DNA of 25,226 nucleotides, taken from assembly GCA_001303705.1 (NCBI GenBank), contig LJUI01000018.1, forward strand, positions 1-25,226, in the 5' to 3' direction. This document shows, one piece after another, positions 2,435-19,939 of the stretch; the first letter of the stretch is position 1; every line of letters begins with the position of its first letter. A model generated the notes under the pieces. The model saw nothing but the letters and a program-made list of their open reading frames with translations, had not been told where the DNA came from and did not search any database. A program made the position numbers and the translations under genes. The DNA is from a candidate division TA06 bacterium SM23_40. GTDB lineage: Bacteria; LJUI01; SM1-40.

Positions 2435-3091
2435 ATGGCTGAGGCCGCGACTAGTCCGGTGATCGAGGAGATCGTCGATTCCATTCTGTCTGTCCAGGGC
2501 GAGAGGACGTTAGAGCTGGTGCAGAAGGCCCTCGACCAGGGGGTGGACCCGATGACCGTCGTTAACGATGGGCTGACGTTCGGCCTGCGCCAGCTCGGGG
2601 AGAGGTACGAGCGGGGGGAGGCGTACATCCCTCACCTCATGATCGCCGGCGATGCCGTCGGCCGGGCGATGAAGATACTCGAGGTACATCTGCCGAAGGA
2701 GGCGCCGGGGAGGGAACGTCCCACCGTCCTCATCGGAACGGTCAAGGACGATATCCATGATCTGGGCAAGAACCTCGTGGCCACGATGCTTTCTGTTTCC
2801 GGGTTTCGGGTGGTCGATCTGGGGAAGAATGTGAGTGCTGAGGCGTTCGTCGAGAAGGTGAAGGAGGTGAAGCCGCGGCTTCTCTGTCTCTCGGCTCTGA
2901 TGACGACGACGATGCTCAATCAGCGCGCCGTCGTCGAGGCGCTCAAGGAGGCGCAGGAGCGGGAGGGCCTCAAGATCATGGTCGGCGGCGCCCCCGTCTC
3001 CGCGGAATGGGCGGAACAGATCGAGGCCGATGCGTACGCCGAGGATGCGATGGAGGCGGTGCGCAAGGCGAAGGAGCTACTGGGTGTGTAG
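2435..3091 (+). CDS. Corrinoid protein (methyltransferase cognate, MtbC/MttC type)
   Basis: A 218-residue cobalamin-binding protein that would carry the methyl group between a substrate methyltransferase and an acceptor methyltransferase in the cytoplasm. An N-terminal helical cap domain (about residues 8-90) is followed by a Rossmann-like B12-binding domain (about 95-215). The base-off/His-on signature is present: DxHxxG at 106-111 with His108 as predicted lower cobalt ligand, then S-x-L at 153-155 and a GG turn in VGGAPVS. Length is normal for the family. AGGAGG at 2424-2429, five bases before the ATG, supports the start. The MttB-like gene begins 195 bp downstream on the same strand, which makes the two likely partners. 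The substrate cannot be read from this protein. Confidence 0.93.
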   Translation: MAEAATSPVIEEIVDSILSVQGERTLELVQKALDQGVDPMTVVNDGLTFGLRQLGERYERGEAYIPHLMIAGDAVGRAMKILEVHLPKEAPGRERPTVLIGTVKDDIHDLGKNLVATMLSVSGFRVVDLGKNVSAEAFVEKVKEVKPRLLCLSALMTTTMLNQRAVVEALKEAQEREGLKIMVGGAPVSAEWAEQIEADAYAEDAMEAVRKAKELLGV

Positions 3092-3148
3092 CGTGTGTCG
3101 CTACGCGTGGCGTGTGTCGCTGCCCGTGGCGTGTGTCGCTACCTCCTC
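3092..3148. repeat. Three tandem copies of a 19-bp unit
   Basis: Units begin at 3092, 3111 and 3130, each starting with CGTGTGTCGCT. The first two differ at only two or three positions in CGTGG-ending 19-mers; the third diverges after its first 11-12 bases. The array starts on the base right after the corrinoid protein stop codon. The remaining spacer up to the next gene shows no recognised element. Confidence 0.7.
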
Positions 3149-3286
3149 GGTGCACGATTGATCGGGGGGGTGAGGGCGGTTTCATAGTGATGGTTGTGGA
3201 GAAGGGGTCCTGCTGAGGTATGGACCTGTGAAGGGTCGGCGCTGCTGACGCCGTGCCGATAGGGAGGACTTCAAAGAGGGGGAGCG

Positions 3287-4804
3287 ATGGCGAGAGAGAC
3301 GACGCAGGGTGACGAAGTGCGAACCGAGGGGCGCTCGGTGCCGCGGAGGCCGCGCCTCTCTTTGCTTGAGCGATCAACCATTGAGCGGATCGTCGATGAG
3401 GCGCGCGAGCTCTTGCAGTCAGTCGGAGTCATCGTCGAGGAGCCCGAGGCGTTGGATCTGTTGGCAGATGGCGGCGCTGAGGTGGATCTTGAGCAGAAGC
3501 GGGCCCGCCTCACAGCACCGATGGTGGAGAAGGCCCTGGCGACGGTTCCCCGCCGCGTCGAGCTATTCGATCGTGCGGGCACGGCAGCGGTCATCTATGC
3601 CGGCGACAGGGTGCAGTTCGATCCGGGATCGGCTGCCCTCCATGTGCTCGATGCCGATACGCGTCGCATCCGAAAAGCGACGACCGAAGACATCATCTCC
3701 TTCGCGAAGCTCGCCGAAGGCCTGGATGAACTCGATGCCCAGAGCACAGCCATCATCGCCGCAGACGTCCCGGAGGCGATCGCGGACAGCTATCGCCTCT
3801 ACCTTCTGCTGCAGTTGACGGAGAAACCGATCGTCACGGGTGCGTTCAGCGGCGAGGGGCTGCTGGTGATGCATCGTCTTCTGGCCGCATCCTCAGGAGG
3901 TGAAGGAGGGCTGAAGGCGCGGCCGAGGGCCGTGTTCGATGTCTGTCCGTCACCTCCTCTGCTCTGGAGCCAGGCCACCTGCCGCAATCTGGTCGACTGT
4001 GCCCGCTTCGGACTTCCCGCCCAGCTCGTCTCTATGCCGCTGGCCGGCGCCACCGGCCCTGTCACGCTCATCGGCGCGGTGACCCAGCATGCTGCTGAGA
4101 ACCTGAGCGGGATCGTCATCCACCAGCTCGCATGCCCGGGCGCCCCAATTATCTGGGGGGGGTCGCCGGCCATCTTCGACATGCGCGAGGGGACGACGCC
4201 CATGGGCGCGGTGGAGACGATGATGATCGACTGCGCGTACGCGGAGGTGGGCAAGCACTTCGGCTTACCCACCCACACGTATATGGGATTGAGCGATACG
4301 AAGGTGCTCGACATGCAGACCGGGCTCGAATCAGGGATGGGCACGGTGCTTGCGATCCTCGCCGGGATAAACCTCGTCTCTGGGGCGGGCATGCTCGACT
4401 TCGAGAGCTGCCAGAGCCCGGAGAAACTCGTCGTCGACTGCGAGATCATCGGCATGGCTCGTCGCCTGTCGGCCGGGCTGGCGATGCGGGACGAGGAGCG
4501 CGTGCGGTCACTCTATACGGAGGATCACAACACGACCTTTCTCACCCTCGAACATACGCTGAGGTGGCTCAAGGATGAGCAACGCATTCCTTCATTCATT
4601 ATAGATCGTGCTGGTCGGCGGAGGTGGGAGGAGCGCGGCGGCACTGACGTAGTCGCGCGGGCCAGGAAGCGGGTGCAGGAACTCGTCGACACGTACGAAC
4701 CGCGTCCCCTGTCGGGCGAGGTGATGAGTGAGATCGAGAACATTGTGCGGAGCGCGGCGGCAGCAGCCGGTGCAGAGCGATTGCCCGGGAGTACGATCGA
4801 GTAG
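3287..4804 (+). CDS. MttB-superfamily (trimethylamine methyltransferase-like) protein, non-pyrrolysine
   Basis: A 505-residue TIM-barrel methyltransferase that would move a methyl group from a quaternary or tertiary amine to the corrinoid protein encoded just upstream. Family marks include PLAGATGPVTL (about 251-261), the GAPIIWGGSP strand (about 285-294) and GLSDTKVLDMQTGLESG (about 334-350). Length matches full MttB family proteins. The frame has no internal amber codon. The only TAG is the terminal one at 4802-4804, with TGA two codons later, so it is not a pyrrolysine MttB. It belongs with the non-Pyl members, whose known substrates include glycine betaine (MtgB), proline betaine and carnitine. 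A purine-rich stretch (AGAGGGGGAGCG) precedes the ATG. No terminal methyltransferase or corrinoid activase is in the window. Confidence 0.9.
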   Translation: MARETTQGDEVRTEGRSVPRRPRLSLLERSTIERIVDEARELLQSVGVIVEEPEALDLLADGGAEVDLEQKRARLTAPMVEKALATVPRRVELFDRAGTAAVIYAGDRVQFDPGSAALHVLDADTRRIRKATTEDIISFAKLAEGLDELDAQSTAIIAADVPEAIADSYRLYLLLQLTEKPIVTGAFSGEGLLVMHRLLAASSGGEGGLKARPRAVFDVCPSPPLLWSQATCRNLVDCARFGLPAQLVSMPLAGATGPVTLIGAVTQHAAENLSGIVIHQLACPGAPIIWGGSPAIFDMREGTTPMGAVETMMIDCAYAEVGKHFGLPTHTYMGLSDTKVLDMQTGLESGMGTVLAILAGINLVSGAGMLDFESCQSPEKLVVDCEIIGMARRLSAGLAMRDEERVRSLYTEDHNTTFLTLEHTLRWLKDEQRIPSFIIDRAGRRRWEERGGTDVVARARKRVQELVDTYEPRPLSGEVMSEIENIVRSAAAAAGAERLPGSTIE

Positions 4805-14402: not shown

Positions 14403-15383
14403 ATGAGTCTCGAGCTCATCCTTGCACCTATTGTAGACGATCTCCTGGAAGTGGGGCGCGCCCTGGAGGAAGAGCTCCGGTCGGAGATACCGGCGGTCGA
14501 CAGGGTGACGCGCCATTTGCTGAGTGGCCGCGGGAAGCTCCTCCGGCCGGCGCTCGTCATCCTCGCCTCGAGAAGTATCGGGGAAGGGGTGTCGAAGAGT
14601 GCCATTCGTGCCGCTACTATGATCGAAATGATCCATATGGCCACGCTCGTCCACGACGATATGGTGGATGGTGCCGAGACGAGGCGCGGCATCGCAACCC
14701 TCAACCACAAATGGAGCGATCGCGTCTCCGTCCTCGCAGGAGACTATGTCTATTCAAGGGCTCTCGCTATGCTGTCGCACGAGGAGATGCACCCGATCCT
14801 CGGGATCGTCGCCGAAACGGTCTGCCGCATGAGCGCTGCAGAGCTGATTCAGACCGACCGGCGTGGGGACGTGACAATGCGGGAGGAAGAATATCTCTCG
14901 ATTGCCGGCGACAAGACAGCCTCTCTGATACGTGCATCCTGCCGGATCGGCTCCGTGTTAGCAGACGGGAGCAAGGCGGATAGAGAGGCGCTCTCCGACT
15001 TCGGATGGAATTTCGGGATCGCGTTTCAGATCGTGGACGATCTGCTCGATTTCGTCGGTTCGGGAAGAAAGATGGGAAAGCCTGTCGGGGTCGACCTCCG
15101 CGATGGGCGGGTGACCCTACCCCTTCTCTACATGTTGAAAGAAGGATCGACGGAAGAGCGTCAGCGGATCGCTCAGATGCTCGATGTCTGCGGCGTAGGC
15201 ACCGAGGAGTCGTGGGAAGAGGCGATCGCGCTCGTGAAGGAGCGCGGCGGAGTGGAACGGACGAGAGAGGTAGCCGGGACGTACACAGAGAGAGCGAAGG
15301 AGGCGATCGACACTCTTGCGCCGTCTCAGGCGAAAGATACGCTGTTGCTGCTTGCTGACTTCGTGGTAGACCGTGATGGGTAG
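14403..15383 (+). CDS. Polyprenyl diphosphate synthase (trans-isoprenyl, E-type)
   Basis: A 326-residue all-helical prenyltransferase that adds isopentenyl diphosphate to an allylic primer to make the long side chain of quinones. The first Asp-rich motif is HDDMVDGAETRRG (about 84-96), the second QIVDDLLDF (209-217), and the IPP-binding GRGKLLRP lies at about 42-49. Length is typical of octaprenyl/heptaprenyl synthase catalytic subunits. Two small residues (Ala80, Thr81) precede the first Asp motif by a few positions, compatible with a long product, but chain length cannot be fixed by eye. ATG 14403 follows GAGGAG closely; an in-frame GTG at 14397 is an alternative. It overlaps the following apbE gene by eight bases, so the two are translationally linked. 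Confidence 0.92.
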   Translation: MSLELILAPIVDDLLEVGRALEEELRSEIPAVDRVTRHLLSGRGKLLRPALVILASRSIGEGVSKSAIRAATMIEMIHMATLVHDDMVDGAETRRGIATLNHKWSDRVSVLAGDYVYSRALAMLSHEEMHPILGIVAETVCRMSAAELIQTDRRGDVTMREEEYLSIAGDKTASLIRASCRIGSVLADGSKADREALSDFGWNFGIAFQIVDDLLDFVGSGRKMGKPVGVDLRDGRVTLPLLYMLKEGSTEERQRIAQMLDVCGVGTEESWEEAIALVKERGGVERTREVAGTYTERAKEAIDTLAPSQAKDTLLLLADFVVDRDG

Positions 15384-16467
15384 TACAGTCCGAATGCGGA
15401 GTCGGGCCTTCTGGTGGGGCGCGGTCATCGCGGTGGCGTGCATCGGCGGCTGGGGCTGCTCATCTTCATCCTCCACTCCCGGGGTCTGCGAGCAGAGCCG
15501 CGCGCTGATCGGCACAGTCGTGACTATAAAGGCCCATCATCCGGATCGTCGCTTGGCCGAGGAGGCGATCGATGCGGCATTCGCCGAGATGGCGCGAGTC
15601 GAGAAGATATGTAGCTGGCGCGGAGCGCAGAGCGAAGTCGCCGCGGTCAACGCACAGGCGGGGGGCTGGAGTGAGGTGGGGCCCGAACTGATGGAACTCG
15701 TGCGAAGATCGCACCACTGTTCCCTCCTGAGCGACGGCGCCTTTGACATTACGGTGGGTCCGGTCGTCGAATTGTGGGGCTTTGAACAGGGAGGGGGATG
15801 GGTCCCATCACCAGAGGAGATCGATGGTCGTCTCGGTCTGGTCGATTTCCGTGCACTGGAGATCGACACGGCGGTCGGGCGGCTGAGGACAGCCCGCCCG
15901 GGCATGGGCCTCGATCTGGGGGGTGTGGCGAAGGGGTACGCAGTCGATCAGGCGATCTCCCTGCTACGGGAGCGAGGTGTGCTGGGGGCGCTTGTCGATG
16001 CGGGAGGCGATCTGCGGGCGATCGGTCTGCGCCCTGACGGGAAGCCCTGGCGGATCGGGATCAAGCATCCGCGTGAACCGGGTCATGTCCTTGCCACTTT
16101 CGAACTCGCTGATGGAAGTGTTGCGACCTCAGGGGACTATGAGCGGTACTTCACAGCGGGGGGGATCCGGTACCATCATCTTCTCGACCCGCGAACCGGA
16201 ATGCCGGCCCGAAAGGCGGTGAGTGCGACTGTCTGGGCTTCCGATGCTTGTACCGCCGACATGTGGGCAACTGCCCTGTTTGTGATGGGGCCGGCCGCCG
16301 GCCTCGGTCTCGCCGAAGACCTCGATGGCATTGACGCATTGATCGTCGAGGCTGCCGAGGGAGGACTGGTGGCATCGCTTTCGAGCGGCCTCGCGGGGCG
16401 TATCGATCTCATTGACCCGGCATTGACGGTACGCTGGGCAGACGCCGGGGACCTCAGGGAGCATTAG
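15376..16467 (+). CDS. apbE: FAD:protein FMN transferase (ApbE)
   Basis: A 363-residue exported enzyme that attaches FMN from FAD to a Thr of target flavoproteins outside the cytoplasmic membrane. A signal peptide (about 1-27, AFWWGAVIAVACIGGWG) ends near Cys28 or Cys22, either of which could be lipidated, though neither lipobox is ideal. Family marks: LIGTVVTIKAH near the N-terminus, SDGAFDITVGPVVELWGF (about 118-135), GLDLGGVAKGYAVDQA, VDAGGDLRAIG, YHHLLDPRTGMPA, and SATVWASDACTADMWATALFV with the Asp/Thr of the metal site. The start overlaps the end of the polyprenyl synthase gene; GTG at 15373 and ATG at 15376 are both in frame and ATG is preferred. No obvious FMN-acceptor protein (FMN_bind domain) lies in the window. 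Confidence 0.95.
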   Translation: MGSTVRMRSRAFWWGAVIAVACIGGWGCSSSSSTPGVCEQSRALIGTVVTIKAHHPDRRLAEEAIDAAFAEMARVEKICSWRGAQSEVAAVNAQAGGWSEVGPELMELVRRSHHCSLLSDGAFDITVGPVVELWGFEQGGGWVPSPEEIDGRLGLVDFRALEIDTAVGRLRTARPGMGLDLGGVAKGYAVDQAISLLRERGVLGALVDAGGDLRAIGLRPDGKPWRIGIKHPREPGHVLATFELADGSVATSGDYERYFTAGGIRYHHLLDPRTGMPARKAVSATVWASDACTADMWATALFVMGPAAGLGLAEDLDGIDALIVEAAEGGLVASLSSGLAGRIDLIDPALTVRWADAGDLREH

Positions 16468-16472
16468 AAGAG

Positions 16473-17471
16473 ATGCAAAAAGTGGAGATGCGGAAGGCTC
16501 TGTTCTGGGAGGCCAGGGATGATGGAAGGGTAGAATGTCGGCTCTGTCCGCATCACTGTCTGATCGCCCAGGGAAAGCAAGGAATCTGCCTGGGCAGGCG
16601 AAACGAGGGTGGCGTGCTCTATGCGGCCAACTACGGAAGGACGACGAGCCTTGCCCTCGATCCGATCGAAAAGAAGCCCCTGTACCATTTCCATCCCGGA
16701 ACCGGCATTCTCTCCATCGCGCCGAACGGATGCAACTTCGCCTGCCCGTTCTGTCAGAACTGGCAGATCTCGCAGAAGGAATCTCCGACAGAGGAGATCA
16801 CCCCCCAGGAACTTGTCGACCTGGCCCGCGGCAGGGATTCGGTAGGAGTGGCCTACACGTACACCGAACCGCTCATCTGGTATGAGTTCCTTCTCGATGC
16901 CTGCAGCGTAGTGCGCGAGCACCGTCTGTCGAACGTACTCGTTACGAACGGCATGATCGAAGAGGAGCCGTTGCGCCAGCTCCTGCCCTTGATCGATGCG
17001 ATGAATATCGACCTGAAGTCGATGGACGAGAGTTTCTATAAGAAGGTAGTAAAGGGCAACCTCGAATCGGTTCTCAGAACGATCAGACTGGCGAAGGAAA
17101 GCTGTCACGTGGAGCTCACTCATCTGGTGGTACCAGGTGCTACCGACTCGCCTGAGCAGATTAATCGACTGATCGACTGGATCGTCGAACTGGGGGACGA
17201 TACGCCGGTCCATTTCTCGCGCTACTTCCCCCACTACAACTACGACGTTCCTGCCACTCCAGTCGAGACGCTGGTGGAGATATGGAACAGGGCCCGGGAG
17301 CGGCTGCGTTTCGTCTATCTCGGTAACATAGCTATCGAGGGGTCGAGTGACACTGTCTGCCCCCGGTGCGGGGTGACCGCGGTGCGGAGATCGTACTACT
17401 CAGTCGATCTCTCCGGCCTGAGCAACGGTCGCTGCGGGGCTTGTGGCGCAGACCTTAACATCGTGCGGTGA
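16473..17471 (+). CDS. amrS: AmrS-like radical SAM protein (AmmeMemoRadiSam family, PflA-related)
   Basis: A 332-residue radical SAM enzyme of the AmrS/COG1180 type; the exact reaction of the family is unresolved. Motifs in order: an N-terminal Cys-rich patch CRLCPHHC...GICLGRR (22-42); the cluster motif CNFACPFC (Cys87, Cys91, Cys94), which binds a 4Fe-4S cluster and SAM; DPIEKKPLYHFHPGTGILSI (63-82), a hallmark of AmrS; and HFSRYFPHY in the barrel end. A C-terminal zinc-ribbon-like pair (CPRCG and CGACG) closes the protein. The ATG at 16473 is five bases after the apbE stop. The usual AmrA/AmrB (Memo) partners are absent here; it sits between flavinylation and redox genes instead. The gene symbol reflects family, not proven function. 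Confidence 0.9.
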   Translation: MQKVEMRKALFWEARDDGRVECRLCPHHCLIAQGKQGICLGRRNEGGVLYAANYGRTTSLALDPIEKKPLYHFHPGTGILSIAPNGCNFACPFCQNWQISQKESPTEEITPQELVDLARGRDSVGVAYTYTEPLIWYEFLLDACSVVREHRLSNVLVTNGMIEEEPLRQLLPLIDAMNIDLKSMDESFYKKVVKGNLESVLRTIRLAKESCHVELTHLVVPGATDSPEQINRLIDWIVELGDDTPVHFSRYFPHYNYDVPATPVETLVEIWNRARERLRFVYLGNIAIEGSSDTVCPRCGVTAVRRSYYSVDLSGLSNGRCGACGADLNIVR

Positions 17472-17480
17472 GGCACTCTG

Positions 17481-17900
17481 TTGATCCTGGTGCACAGCAG
17501 GAGATCTCGTGATCCGCGAGGGAGGCTGCGGAGCCTGCTGACCCCGGGGGATGTTGCGCTCATCATTGTTCTCCTTCTCGCTTCAGGCGGTAGCATTGTG
17601 GTGCTGCGGGCCGCGCTCGCGGCAGGAGAATACTGCGTTATCTTCGCGGGGGACGAGGAGTTCGGGCGATTTCCGCTGTCGAAGGATCGCACCGTCCATG
17701 TCCCTGGTCCGCTCGGCACCACGGATGTGGTCATTCGGCAGGGCTCTGTCCGGGTTGTCGACTCGCCCTGTCCCCACAGAGTATGTGTGAGCATGGGGGA
17801 GAAGCGCCGTTCGGGTGAGACGGTCGCATGCGTCCCGAATCGAGTACTCGTTCTGGTTTGTAGCAGGCGGGGGAGCGGTGTGGATGCGATCACCAGGTAG
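17481..17900 (+). CDS. NusG domain II-containing membrane-anchored protein (EetA-like)
   Basis: A 139-residue protein with one N-terminal membrane segment (DVALIIVLLLASGGSIVVL, about 24-42) and an extracytoplasmic NusG-domain-II fold. The family signature is SPCPHRVCVSMG...GETVACVPNRVLV, with three conserved Cys. It is not the transcription factor NusG; stand-alone domain II proteins of this type accompany Gx membrane proteins and ApbE in redox loci. The start is a TTG at 17481 with GAGG seven bases upstream. It begins nine bases after amrS and overlaps the next gene by 17 bp. Involvement in membrane electron transfer is inferred from context. Confidence 0.85.
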   Translation: MILVHSRRSRDPRGRLRSLLTPGDVALIIVLLLASGGSIVVLRAALAAGEYCVIFAGDEEFGRFPLSKDRTVHVPGPLGTTDVVIRQGSVRVVDSPCPHRVCVSMGEKRRSGETVACVPNRVLVLVCSRRGSGVDAITR

Positions 17901-18447
17901 GGAGACCCGTTCGTCGTGGAGCACATACGCGATCAGTCGTTTGTCGTTGCTCGTGGCGGTGGGGATTGCTCTGTACGTCGTCGAGGGTTATCTGCCGCGG
18001 CCGGTCCCCTGGATTCGGCTCGGGCTCTCGAACGTGGTGACGCTGGTGGCACTGGTCGGGTTCGGTTTCGGTGAGGCATTCGCCGTCGGCTTCCTCCGCG
18101 TCCTCCTCGGGGCACTCATCTCGGGGTCGCTCTTCTCGCCCGCCTTTCTCTTCTCGCTCGTGGGCGCCGGGGCGAGCGTATCGCTGATGGGCCTCACTCA
18201 CCTTCGGTGGAAGCGTGTCTTTAGTCCGATAGGGATATCGATCTTCGGGGCGCTGGGCCACAACATCACACAACTTACGCTGGCCTATCTGCTCTTCGTC
18301 AGAAAGTTCGAGTTGCTTCTCATGGCCCCCTTTGTTATCTTTCTATCGGTGATCATGGGAAGCGTGGTCGGGGTGGCCGGGGTACTGCTCCTCGATGGCA
18401 TGGAACGGGCCGGGCTTCGACACCGGGAGCACCTTGCCTCCGGCTGA
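17884..18447 (+). CDS. Gx transporter family / Hpre_diP_synt_I membrane protein (EetB-like)
   Basis: A 187-residue integral membrane protein with about five to six hydrophobic helices and the family opening LSLLVAVGIALYVVEGYLPRPVPWIRLGLSN (about 20-50), followed by GEAFAVGFLRVLLGALISGS. Databases often name it heptaprenyl diphosphate synthase component I, but it looks like an ECF-type S-component and lacks prenyltransferase motifs. ATG 17884 is chosen with GGGAG ten bases upstream; a GTG at 17878 is also possible, and the frame is open for a further 21 codons inside the previous gene. Direct overlap with the NusG-II gene indicates tight coupling. In Listeria-type loci a related pair (EetA/EetB) works in flavin-based electron export; that role is inferred here. 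Confidence 0.88.
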   Translation: MRSPGRETRSSWSTYAISRLSLLVAVGIALYVVEGYLPRPVPWIRLGLSNVVTLVALVGFGFGEAFAVGFLRVLLGALISGSLFSPAFLFSLVGAGASVSLMGLTHLRWKRVFSPIGISIFGALGHNITQLTLAYLLFVRKFELLLMAPFVIFLSVIMGSVVGVAGVLLLDGMERAGLRHREHLASG

Positions 18448-18491: not shown

Positions 18492-18758
18492 GTGCCGCTT
18501 CGTAGAAAACGGACTGGTGTGCTTGTCCTCATTCTCATCGTCGGGGCTCTGGTGGGCAGTGGATTGGGGAAGATTCTCGGGGCCGTCATCCCTGCGGGGC
18601 CGGCAAGAGACTTCTTCATCCAGGTGGTCAATATCGGATTCTCGCCGTTCACGCTGGACCTCTCAGTGATCAGACTCACACTCGGGTTCACGTTCGAGAT
18701 CAACATCATAACCATCCTCGGCGTATTGCTGCTTGCGTATGTCTTGAAGTGGTTCTAG
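18492..18758 (+). CDS. DUF4321 domain membrane protein
   Basis: An 88-residue protein with two predicted membrane segments (about 8-30, VLVLILIVGALVGSGLGKIL, and 66-86, INIITILGVLLLAYVLKW) joined by a segment reading NIGFSPFTLDLSVIRLTLGF, the hallmark of DUF4321. Family function is unknown. The start is a GTG at 18492 with a G-rich stretch (AAAGGGGG) about eleven bases upstream. It lies 44 bp after the Gx gene in the same operon. Confidence 0.8.
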   Translation: MPLRRKRTGVLVLILIVGALVGSGLGKILGAVIPAGPARDFFIQVVNIGFSPFTLDLSVIRLTLGFTFEINIITILGVLLLAYVLKWF

Positions 18759-18869: not shown

Positions 18870-19058
18870 ATGTTCGGGAATATTGGACTTCAGGAGATAT
18901 TGATTATCCTTCTCATCGTTCTGCTCTTGTTTGGGGCAAAACGGATTCCTGAAGTTGCGCGGGCTTTGGGAAAGGGGATCAAGGAGTTCAGGGATTCGAT
19001 GAAGGAGATCGGAAAGGATATTGAAGGAGACACGGGAGAGGAGAAGAAAGAGGGCTGA
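18870..19058 (+). CDS. tatA: Twin-arginine translocase subunit TatA/E
   Basis: A 62-residue TatA-family protein: short periplasmic N-terminus, one membrane helix (about 7-24, LQEILIILLIVLLLFG), the FG hinge, then the amphipathic helix AKRIPEVARALGKGIKEFRDSM and a charged tail. It would form the pore of the Tat export system for folded, cofactor-bearing proteins. GGAGG about nine bases upstream supports the ATG. The TGA stop shares its last base with the ATG of the next gene. No tatC or twin-arginine substrate is in the window. The 111-bp gap before it holds no clear promoter. Confidence 0.95.
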   Translation: MFGNIGLQEILIILLIVLLLFGAKRIPEVARALGKGIKEFRDSMKEIGKDIEGDTGEEKKEG

Positions 19059-19939
19059 TGGAGCGACGGCAGAGAACGACGAGAGAAGATGATCGCGCCA
19101 TTCTAAGGACCATCAGGAGACGGTTGGGCTATCAGGCGCTCTTCGACGTACCTGACGTGGAAGCAGCGATCGATCTGGCGGTGCAGTCGAAGTTGAGCGC
19201 CGTTGAGCTCAACATGAACGCTCCCCACTTCTATCCCGAGCGCTACCCGAGAGGGAAGCGTCGGGAGCTGCGCCGTCGGGCGGAGGATGGCGGCGTCGTC
19301 CTCCTTCTCCACGCGAACGAGGAGATCGATCTCTGCTCCTTCCGGGAAGAGATCAGGTGTGGCAGCATCGAGCTCGTGGCAAGGACGATTGAGTTCGCTG
19401 TCGACCTCGGAGCGCTGCGTGTGACGATCCATCCGGGGAGGCTGGCGCCGCTGTTCGGTGTTGAAGGAAGATATGTCTCCCTATTCGAGAAGTACCCCGG
19501 CGGGTTTGCCAATTCATTCCGCGACAGCATCATGGGCATCTCGCCCTTCCTCGACCCGCGCGTCGACGTCTGCTTCGAGAATGTAGGCCCGTTCCACGAT
19601 CCGATCACCCATCCGCTGCTGGAGGAGCTCTGGGCGAGTGTAGATATCTATCTGGCCTGGGATCTGGGCCATACGCACTTGCTGCAGCGGCGTGACCCGG
19701 ACAGAGGTGAGCTGGAACAACGGTTCTTCCGGCGGCACCTCGACCGGGTGCGCAACTGCCATGTGCACGATAACGATGGAAAACGAGATAGCCACGACGT
19801 CATCGGCCGGGGGACTGCCGACATCCGCAGCTATCTCGAACTCCTTGCCGGTACTCAGACCTGGTTCATCTTCGAGGTACGCCCGCACGAGCGCGCACTC
19901 GAATGTCTTCGCGTCTTCGAGAGCTGGCTTGAGCCCTAG
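19058..19939 (+). CDS. Sugar phosphate isomerase/epimerase-like TIM barrel protein
   Basis: A 293-residue AP-endonuclease-2/xylose-isomerase-like barrel. Candidate metal ligands are spread as in the family: AVELNMNAPHF (about 48-58), LLLHANEEID (about 82-91), VTIHPGRL (about 127-134), VCFENVGPFHD (about 171-181), LAWDLGHTHLL (about 200-210), CHVHDNDGKRDSHD (about 234-247) and IFEVRPHE (about 268-275). A substrate, sugar or otherwise, cannot be named. The ATG overlaps the tatA stop by one base, so it is translationally coupled. The TAG stop at 19937-19939 overlaps the TAG of the convergent chaperone gene on the other strand. Confidence 0.82.
   Translation: MERRQRTTREDDRAILRTIRRRLGYQALFDVPDVEAAIDLAVQSKLSAVELNMNAPHFYPERYPRGKRRELRRRAEDGGVVLLLHANEEIDLCSFREEIRCGSIELVARTIEFAVDLGALRVTIHPGRLAPLFGVEGRYVSLFEKYPGGFANSFRDSIMGISPFLDPRVDVCFENVGPFHDPITHPLLEELWASVDIYLAWDLGHTHLLQRRDPDRGELEQRFFRRHLDRVRNCHVHDNDGKRDSHDVIGRGTADIRSYLELLAGTQTWFIFEVRPHERALECLRVFESWLEP

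Follow-up and report, generated by a model that had tools for sequence, protein, structure and literature searches.

Here, we analyzed a stretch of 25,226 nucleotides of contig LJUI01000018.1 (hereafter the window, whose positions serve as coordinates for the locus) from a metagenome-assembled genome (MAG) of candidate division TA06 bacterium SM23_40, in which a compact operon encodes a trans-polyprenyl diphosphate synthase (PPS), the flavin transferase ApbE, an AmrS-type radical S-adenosylmethionine (SAM) enzyme, an EetA-like protein, and an EetB-like protein. We hold, with a probability of about 0.7, that this operon is a module for flavin export and protein flavinylation, that the Rnf complex is its client, and that AmrS belongs to the same biogenesis path. 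The operon most likely exports flavin adenine dinucleotide (FAD) and flavinylates Rnf rather than reducing targets outside the cell. This reading draws on family membership, fold, gene order, recurrence of the cluster, and the presence of a single ApbE and a single FMN_bind protein in the genome, on Listeria work as regards FAD export, and, as regards the Rnf client and any role of AmrS, on gene context.

Profile searches recovered every gene named in a first-pass annotation of this DNA, which had been made from the sequence alone, at its place and on its strand. On the plus strand, the DmkB/HepT-like PPS (14403..15383; PF00348, E 2.6e-66), which starts at ATG 14403 with GAGGAG upstream, is followed by the FAD:protein flavin mononucleotide (FMN) transferase ApbE (15373..16467; PF02424, E 8.3e-90), whose N-terminus carries an export signal and a possible lipoprotein cysteine, and then by AmrS (16473..17471; TIGR04337, 307.1 bits against a cut-off of 220), by EetA with its NusG_II domain (17481..17900; PF07009, E 8.8e-22), and by EetB, an energy-coupling factor (ECF) S subunit and predicted FAD exporter component (17884..18447; PF07456, Hpre_diP_synt_I, E 6.5e-37). 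With the start of EetB set at ATG 17884, which makes it overlap EetA, the distances between these five genes are -11, +5, +9, and about -17 bases. Since all of them either overlap or lie less than 10 bases apart, they likely form one transcript, in keeping with the tightly packed operon that the annotation had described.

The relation of EetB to flavin transport is apparent from both profile and structure comparisons. Among PDB entries, a profile made of seven EetB sequences matched RibU, a subunit of a riboflavin transporter (3p5n, E 0.0048), and the best five matches of the AlphaFold model of the window protein (pLDDT 83.7) were all riboflavin ECF-S structures, the closest being the RibU of Thermotoga (TmRibU, 5kc0; E 8e-4, TM 0.68/0.75). 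PF07456 is also the family used for EetB by Rivera-Lugo et al. (PMC9973259), who found its genes colocalized with eetA in 3,328 genomes, with apbE in 2,169, and with Rnf in 572 Clostridia. In Listeria, EetB (PF07456) binds FAD, is required for the flavinylation of PplA, and supplies FAD to FmnB/ApbE, and is as such an FAD-binding exporter subunit and no electron carrier (PMC9973259). By analogy with this work, the EetB of the window would export FAD as well. As for its potential ECF-T partner, two CbiQ-family proteins are encoded in the MAG, one of which adjoins truA.

EetA consists of one N-terminal transmembrane helix and an extracytoplasmic NusG-II domain, in which the cysteines of a C-x4-C ... 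C-x-P-N arrangement are kept in 63, 63, and 64 of 64 homologs. Its model (pLDDT 84.8) matches structures of NusG domain II and DUF1312, including EF3258 of E. faecalis (4obi), and the resemblance to EetA and EetB that had been suspected from the sequence is thus borne out by family and fold. A homolog in Mesoaciditoga (L221:6769-7200) is devoid of all three conserved cysteines, at a locus that has two ApbE copies.

With regard to the client, the MAG (2.88 Mb in 189 contigs, 89.8% complete) holds one ApbE, the window copy, and one FMN_bind protein (PF04205), RnfG, whose flavinylation motif TGATIS lies within DALTGATIS. Because RnfG is the sole FMN_bind protein, Rnf is, on gene context, the evident client of ApbE in this genome, and the first-pass annotation was right to expect the acceptor elsewhere, in this case on contig C124. 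There, RnfG is encoded within an rnfC-D-G-E-A operon, in which RnfD carries TTATPL, in agreement with the known RnfD attachment motif; rnfB was not seen in the stretch of C124 that was read. Immediately 3' of rnfA lies tatC (L008:1736-2458, a Pfam match), and, with tatA found in the window operon, the Tat pair is divided between the two operons in this MAG.

In the path that we propose, EetB, together with ECF-T and ATPase components encoded elsewhere, would move FAD out of the cytosol, and ApbE, anchored outside the membrane, would take the exported FAD and attach FMN to threonine residues of exported proteins, the client in this genome being the Rnf complex through RnfG and, by motif, probably also RnfD. 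EetA would be a membrane-anchored three-cysteine partner of EetB, and the co-transcribed AmrS would most likely carry out a cytosolic radical SAM step needed in the same biogenesis path.

The first-pass annotation had regarded AmrS as a gene inserted into the cluster, a view that does not fit its distribution. A search of the phylum returned this genome alone; of 386 genomes drawn from the whole bacterial domain, 88 had PF07456, and we surveyed the neighborhoods of 89 PF07456 loci from 59 families, window included, by reading the loci directly around EetB. AmrS lies on the same strand as EetB, 145-1468 bases away, in 23 of these loci and 13 of the families, spread over unrelated phyla, when about 0.1 such loci would be expected by chance (our own estimate, which assumes that each genome has two or three AmrS-like genes, uniformly placed). 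We therefore rejected a one-off insertion. AmrS is actually the most widespread annotated neighbor after EetB, EetA, and ApbE, the commonest unlabeled neighbor clusters including opposite-strand shadows of known genes, and the conservation of the cluster beyond its host, which the annotation had left to be surveyed, is manifest in the same gene pairs recurring in unrelated families far above chance. At least five gene orders place AmrS inside the cluster: ApbE-AmrS-EetA-EetB as in the window, AmrS-ApbE-EetA-EetB, PPS-AmrS-ApbE-EetA-EetB, AmrS-EetA-EetB, and, in continuous operons, RnfCDGEA-ApbE-AmrS-EetA-EetB. Rnf is contiguous with ApbE-(AmrS)-EetA-EetB at several loci of other lineages (L117, L129, L151, L155, and L162). 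An RseC/MucC-family gene adjoins EetB in five families (L155:7471-7965 and relatives), which recalls the role that RseC has with Rsx/Rnf in E. coli.

A separate scan for AmrS brought further contigs, among which the window's exact order plus DUF4321 in WOR-3 (L205), Rnf, ApbE, AmrS, EetA, and EetB in Eisenbacteria (L203), PPS-AmrS-ApbE-EetA-EetB in Deferribacterales (L249), a Spirochaetales contig (L260), and AMMECR1-AmrS-ApbE-EetA-EetB, with AMMECR1 confirmed, in Pseudothermotoga (L207). On three contigs of Cloacimonadota, EetA comes after AmrS, with neither EetB nor ApbE, and on contigs of UBP3 and Chlamydiae, a DsbD_2-FMN_bind-Fer4_5 membrane flavoprotein (L264:7826-11014 and L277:5576-8503) is found directly 5' of AmrS without EetAB. 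The window AmrS combines CxxxCxxC with a Cys motif in its N-terminal part and a zinc-ribbon-like one in its C-terminal part, and it has every invariant Cys of 16 cluster-linked AmrS proteins. Its nearest relatives of solved structure are pyruvate formate-lyase activases, a likeness compatible with a protein or peptide as the target of AmrS, though no proof of it.

Mapped on a tree of 133 AmrS proteins, linkage to EetAB needs 15 changes, against 29 with shuffled labels, and the well-supported branches force at least four of them, so that the AmrS–EetAB link appears clustered, yet without forming a single clade; it may be either old and often lost or the product of several gains. The window AmrS groups, with weak support, with FCB-like lineages (WOR-3, Eisenbacteria, and Fermentibacterota, with Cloacimonadota nearby). 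Together, AmrS, Memo, and AMMECR1 make up AmmeMemoRadiSam, a three-part system of prokaryotes with no known function, two members of which, AMMECR1 and Memo, have conserved counterparts as far as humans. Memo is encoded in the MAG (PF01875, on contig C160; TIGR04336, 111.5 against a cut-off of 26), and AMMECR1 (PF01871), which is present in all 22 other genomes with an EetAB-linked AmrS, was not found in it, as the incompleteness of the assembly may explain. None of the papers that we could search connects AmrS or AMMECR1 to flavinylation or to ApbE, Rnf, or EetB, many subscription papers being beyond our reach, and the term "radical SAM" is absent from the main text of a large flavinylation survey; such silence is no proof of novelty.

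From these observations, we tentatively suggest, while giving it less than even odds, that AmrS and the AMMECR1/Memo/AmrS system may act in the biogenesis of extracytosolic flavoproteins, through a radical SAM modification by AmrS of EetA, of an Rnf-type client, or of the exported flavin, either ahead of ApbE or in parallel with it. Since radical SAM enzymes work in the cytosol, AmrS could reach EetA, an Rnf subunit, or the flavin only ahead of export, unless its target is a cytosolic partner. What would argue for a function, at the level of gene context, is that AmrS lies inside the cluster, that the gene order varies, and that it is also paired either with EetA and no EetB or ApbE or with a different flavoprotein. 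A further lead, and only a lead, is a possible covariation of AmrS linkage with column 127 of EetA, in the strand after C-x-P-N, where R/K occurs in 22 of the 31 families without AmrS linkage and in 2 of the 13 with it (Fisher p 0.001, for a column picked post hoc after all columns had been viewed); when labels were shuffled, 7 of 500 scans reached the observed maximum.

Several points weigh against the flavinylation module as we propose it. On the transport side, no ECF ATPases A/A' turned up next to the genes for ECF-T, the search for them not having extended to the whole genome. On the client side, the Rnf operon is not on the window contig, its tie to the window operon is that it holds the sole FMN_bind match of an 89.8% complete MAG, and the count of clients covers FMN_bind, with other ApbE substrates (DUF2271, DUF3570) lying outside that count. 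As for AmrS, its EetAB-linked members are not one clade, and Maf, an unrelated gene, is found repeatedly downstream of EetB, in 11 families, so that a neighbor that recurs is not necessarily a partner and recurrence alone is no proof of shared function. AmrS could in this regard be unrelated to flavins and hitchhike through shared housekeeping transcription units, leaving the flavin-export module itself unchanged. Maf, likewise a frequent neighbor of EetB and without known flavin role, and the many genomes in which AmrS stands beside AMMECR1 or by itself speak for such a passenger; its position within the cluster itself, with five or more gene orders over 13 families, its association with EetA without EetB or ApbE in Cloacimonadota and with the DsbD-FMN_bind-Fer4_5 flavoprotein in two further phyla, and, as a post hoc lead, the EetA residue that covaries with its linkage speak for a partner, and we regard hitchhiking as unlikely, albeit worth keeping in mind.

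Two other explanations bear on EetA and EetB themselves. The first-pass annotation had seen in the locus a Listeria-type core of extracellular electron transfer (EET), its acceptor and Ndh2 lying elsewhere, through which electrons would pass from menaquinol via EetA/EetB to a flavoprotein and then outside. The genes and the resemblance hold: PPS, ApbE, EetA, and EetB are all in the window, and MenA, one of the menaquinone genes that the annotation had suggested looking for, is found above cut-off on contig C21, separate from the window contig; moreover, EetA mutants of E. faecalis have low ferric reductase activity (PMC9864754). However, neither an EET core nor a quinone-to-flavoprotein electron route is supported: EetB binds and exports FAD, a delta-eetA mutant of Listeria has no EET phenotype and retains activity (PMC9973259), and related lineages have these genes next to Rnf. 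Besides, EET clusters are operationally recognized by a membrane NADH dehydrogenase adjoining the flavinylation genes (PMC8238504), and no such enzyme (Ndh2/Ndh3) occurs in the window, the rest of the genome not having been searched for Ndh2. Nor is DmkA found beside the DmkB-like PPS in the window, and the FMN_bind search of the MAG, with RnfG as its sole match, returned no PplA-like flavinylated lipoprotein. With no Ndh2 or DmkA in the locus and no PplA, we rejected membership of the EET loci, and an EET core seems very improbable. Alternatively, EetA, and AmrS with it, might mature the iron-sulfur of Rnf (the intramembrane cluster of RnfA/E), in the manner of NqrM with NQR, rather than handle flavins. 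Three near-invariant cysteines on the outer side, the frequent presence of Rnf in the same operon, and the nqr operon of V. cholerae, which holds both NqrM and ApbE (PMC12174285), make this conceivable, but in Listeria and further EetAB carriers the gene cluster that holds EetA has no Rnf, and EetA resembles NusG domain II rather than any known carrier of iron-sulfur clusters, and we deem this maturation role improbable.

Beyond the core, the gaps widen to 44 bases between EetB and a DUF4321 small membrane protein with two transmembrane helices (18492..18758, plus strand; PF14209, E 6e-13), and to 111 bases between the latter and TatA (18870..19058, plus strand; PF02416, E 6.5e-20; TIGR01411 above cut-off). 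In the neighborhood survey, PPS lies immediately 5' of apbE in four families, DUF4321 directly after EetB in five, and the DUF4321-TatA pair is found in three; we propose that PPS, DUF4321, and TatA recur either as passengers or in a supporting role (quinone tail, envelope). An AP-endonuclease-2/CbiR-like TIM-barrel protein, whose gene overlaps tatA (19058..19939, plus strand; PF01261, E 7.7e-22), is next to TatA at the window locus only, and scores 43 bits with the CbiR model NF041277, below its cut-off of 105, and its inclusion in the module is doubtful. CbiR being a cobamide-remodeling phosphodiesterase, this protein may relate to corrinoid genes upstream in the window, where a corrinoid-binding protein (PF02310/PF02607) and then an MTTB-family methyltransferase (PF06253, E 9.5e-81) form a B12-dependent methyl transfer pair (2435-4804). 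At 3-2114, the window edge truncates a gingipain-like peptidase C25, of which the C-terminal part remains, Ig and MAM-like domains being present.

Among known systems, the locus shares with the Listeria EetB-FmnA exporter feeding FmnB/ApbE (PMC9973259) a PF07456 ECF-S subunit of RibU-like fold adjoining EetA and ApbE, but it is without a dedicated ECF-T, PplA, Ndh2, and DmkA, adds AmrS, DUF4321, and TatA, and appears to have Rnf as its client. The association of EetB and ApbE with Rnf is likewise that of the clostridial Rnf loci with eetB (PMC9973259, 572 genomes), except that here Rnf lies on another contig, AmrS is in the cluster, and the host is no Clostridium. As in the FLEET locus of Listeria and Enterococcus, a DmkB-like PPS, an FmnB-like ApbE, EetA, and EetB stand together, whereas Ndh2, PplA, and DmkA are missing from the window locus and no PplA-like protein was found in the genome; EetA/EetB-like genes beside ApbE do not on their own imply EET, which corrects a tempting misreading. 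With AmmeMemoRadiSam, finally, the genome shares an AmrS above cut-off (TIGR04337) and a Memo encoded elsewhere, and differs in that AMMECR1 was not found in the MAG and in that AmrS sits in a flavinylation operon, a setting that could link it to a measurable process, the covalent flavinylation of Rnf and related carriers, and thereby provide a concrete assay for AmmeMemoRadiSam.

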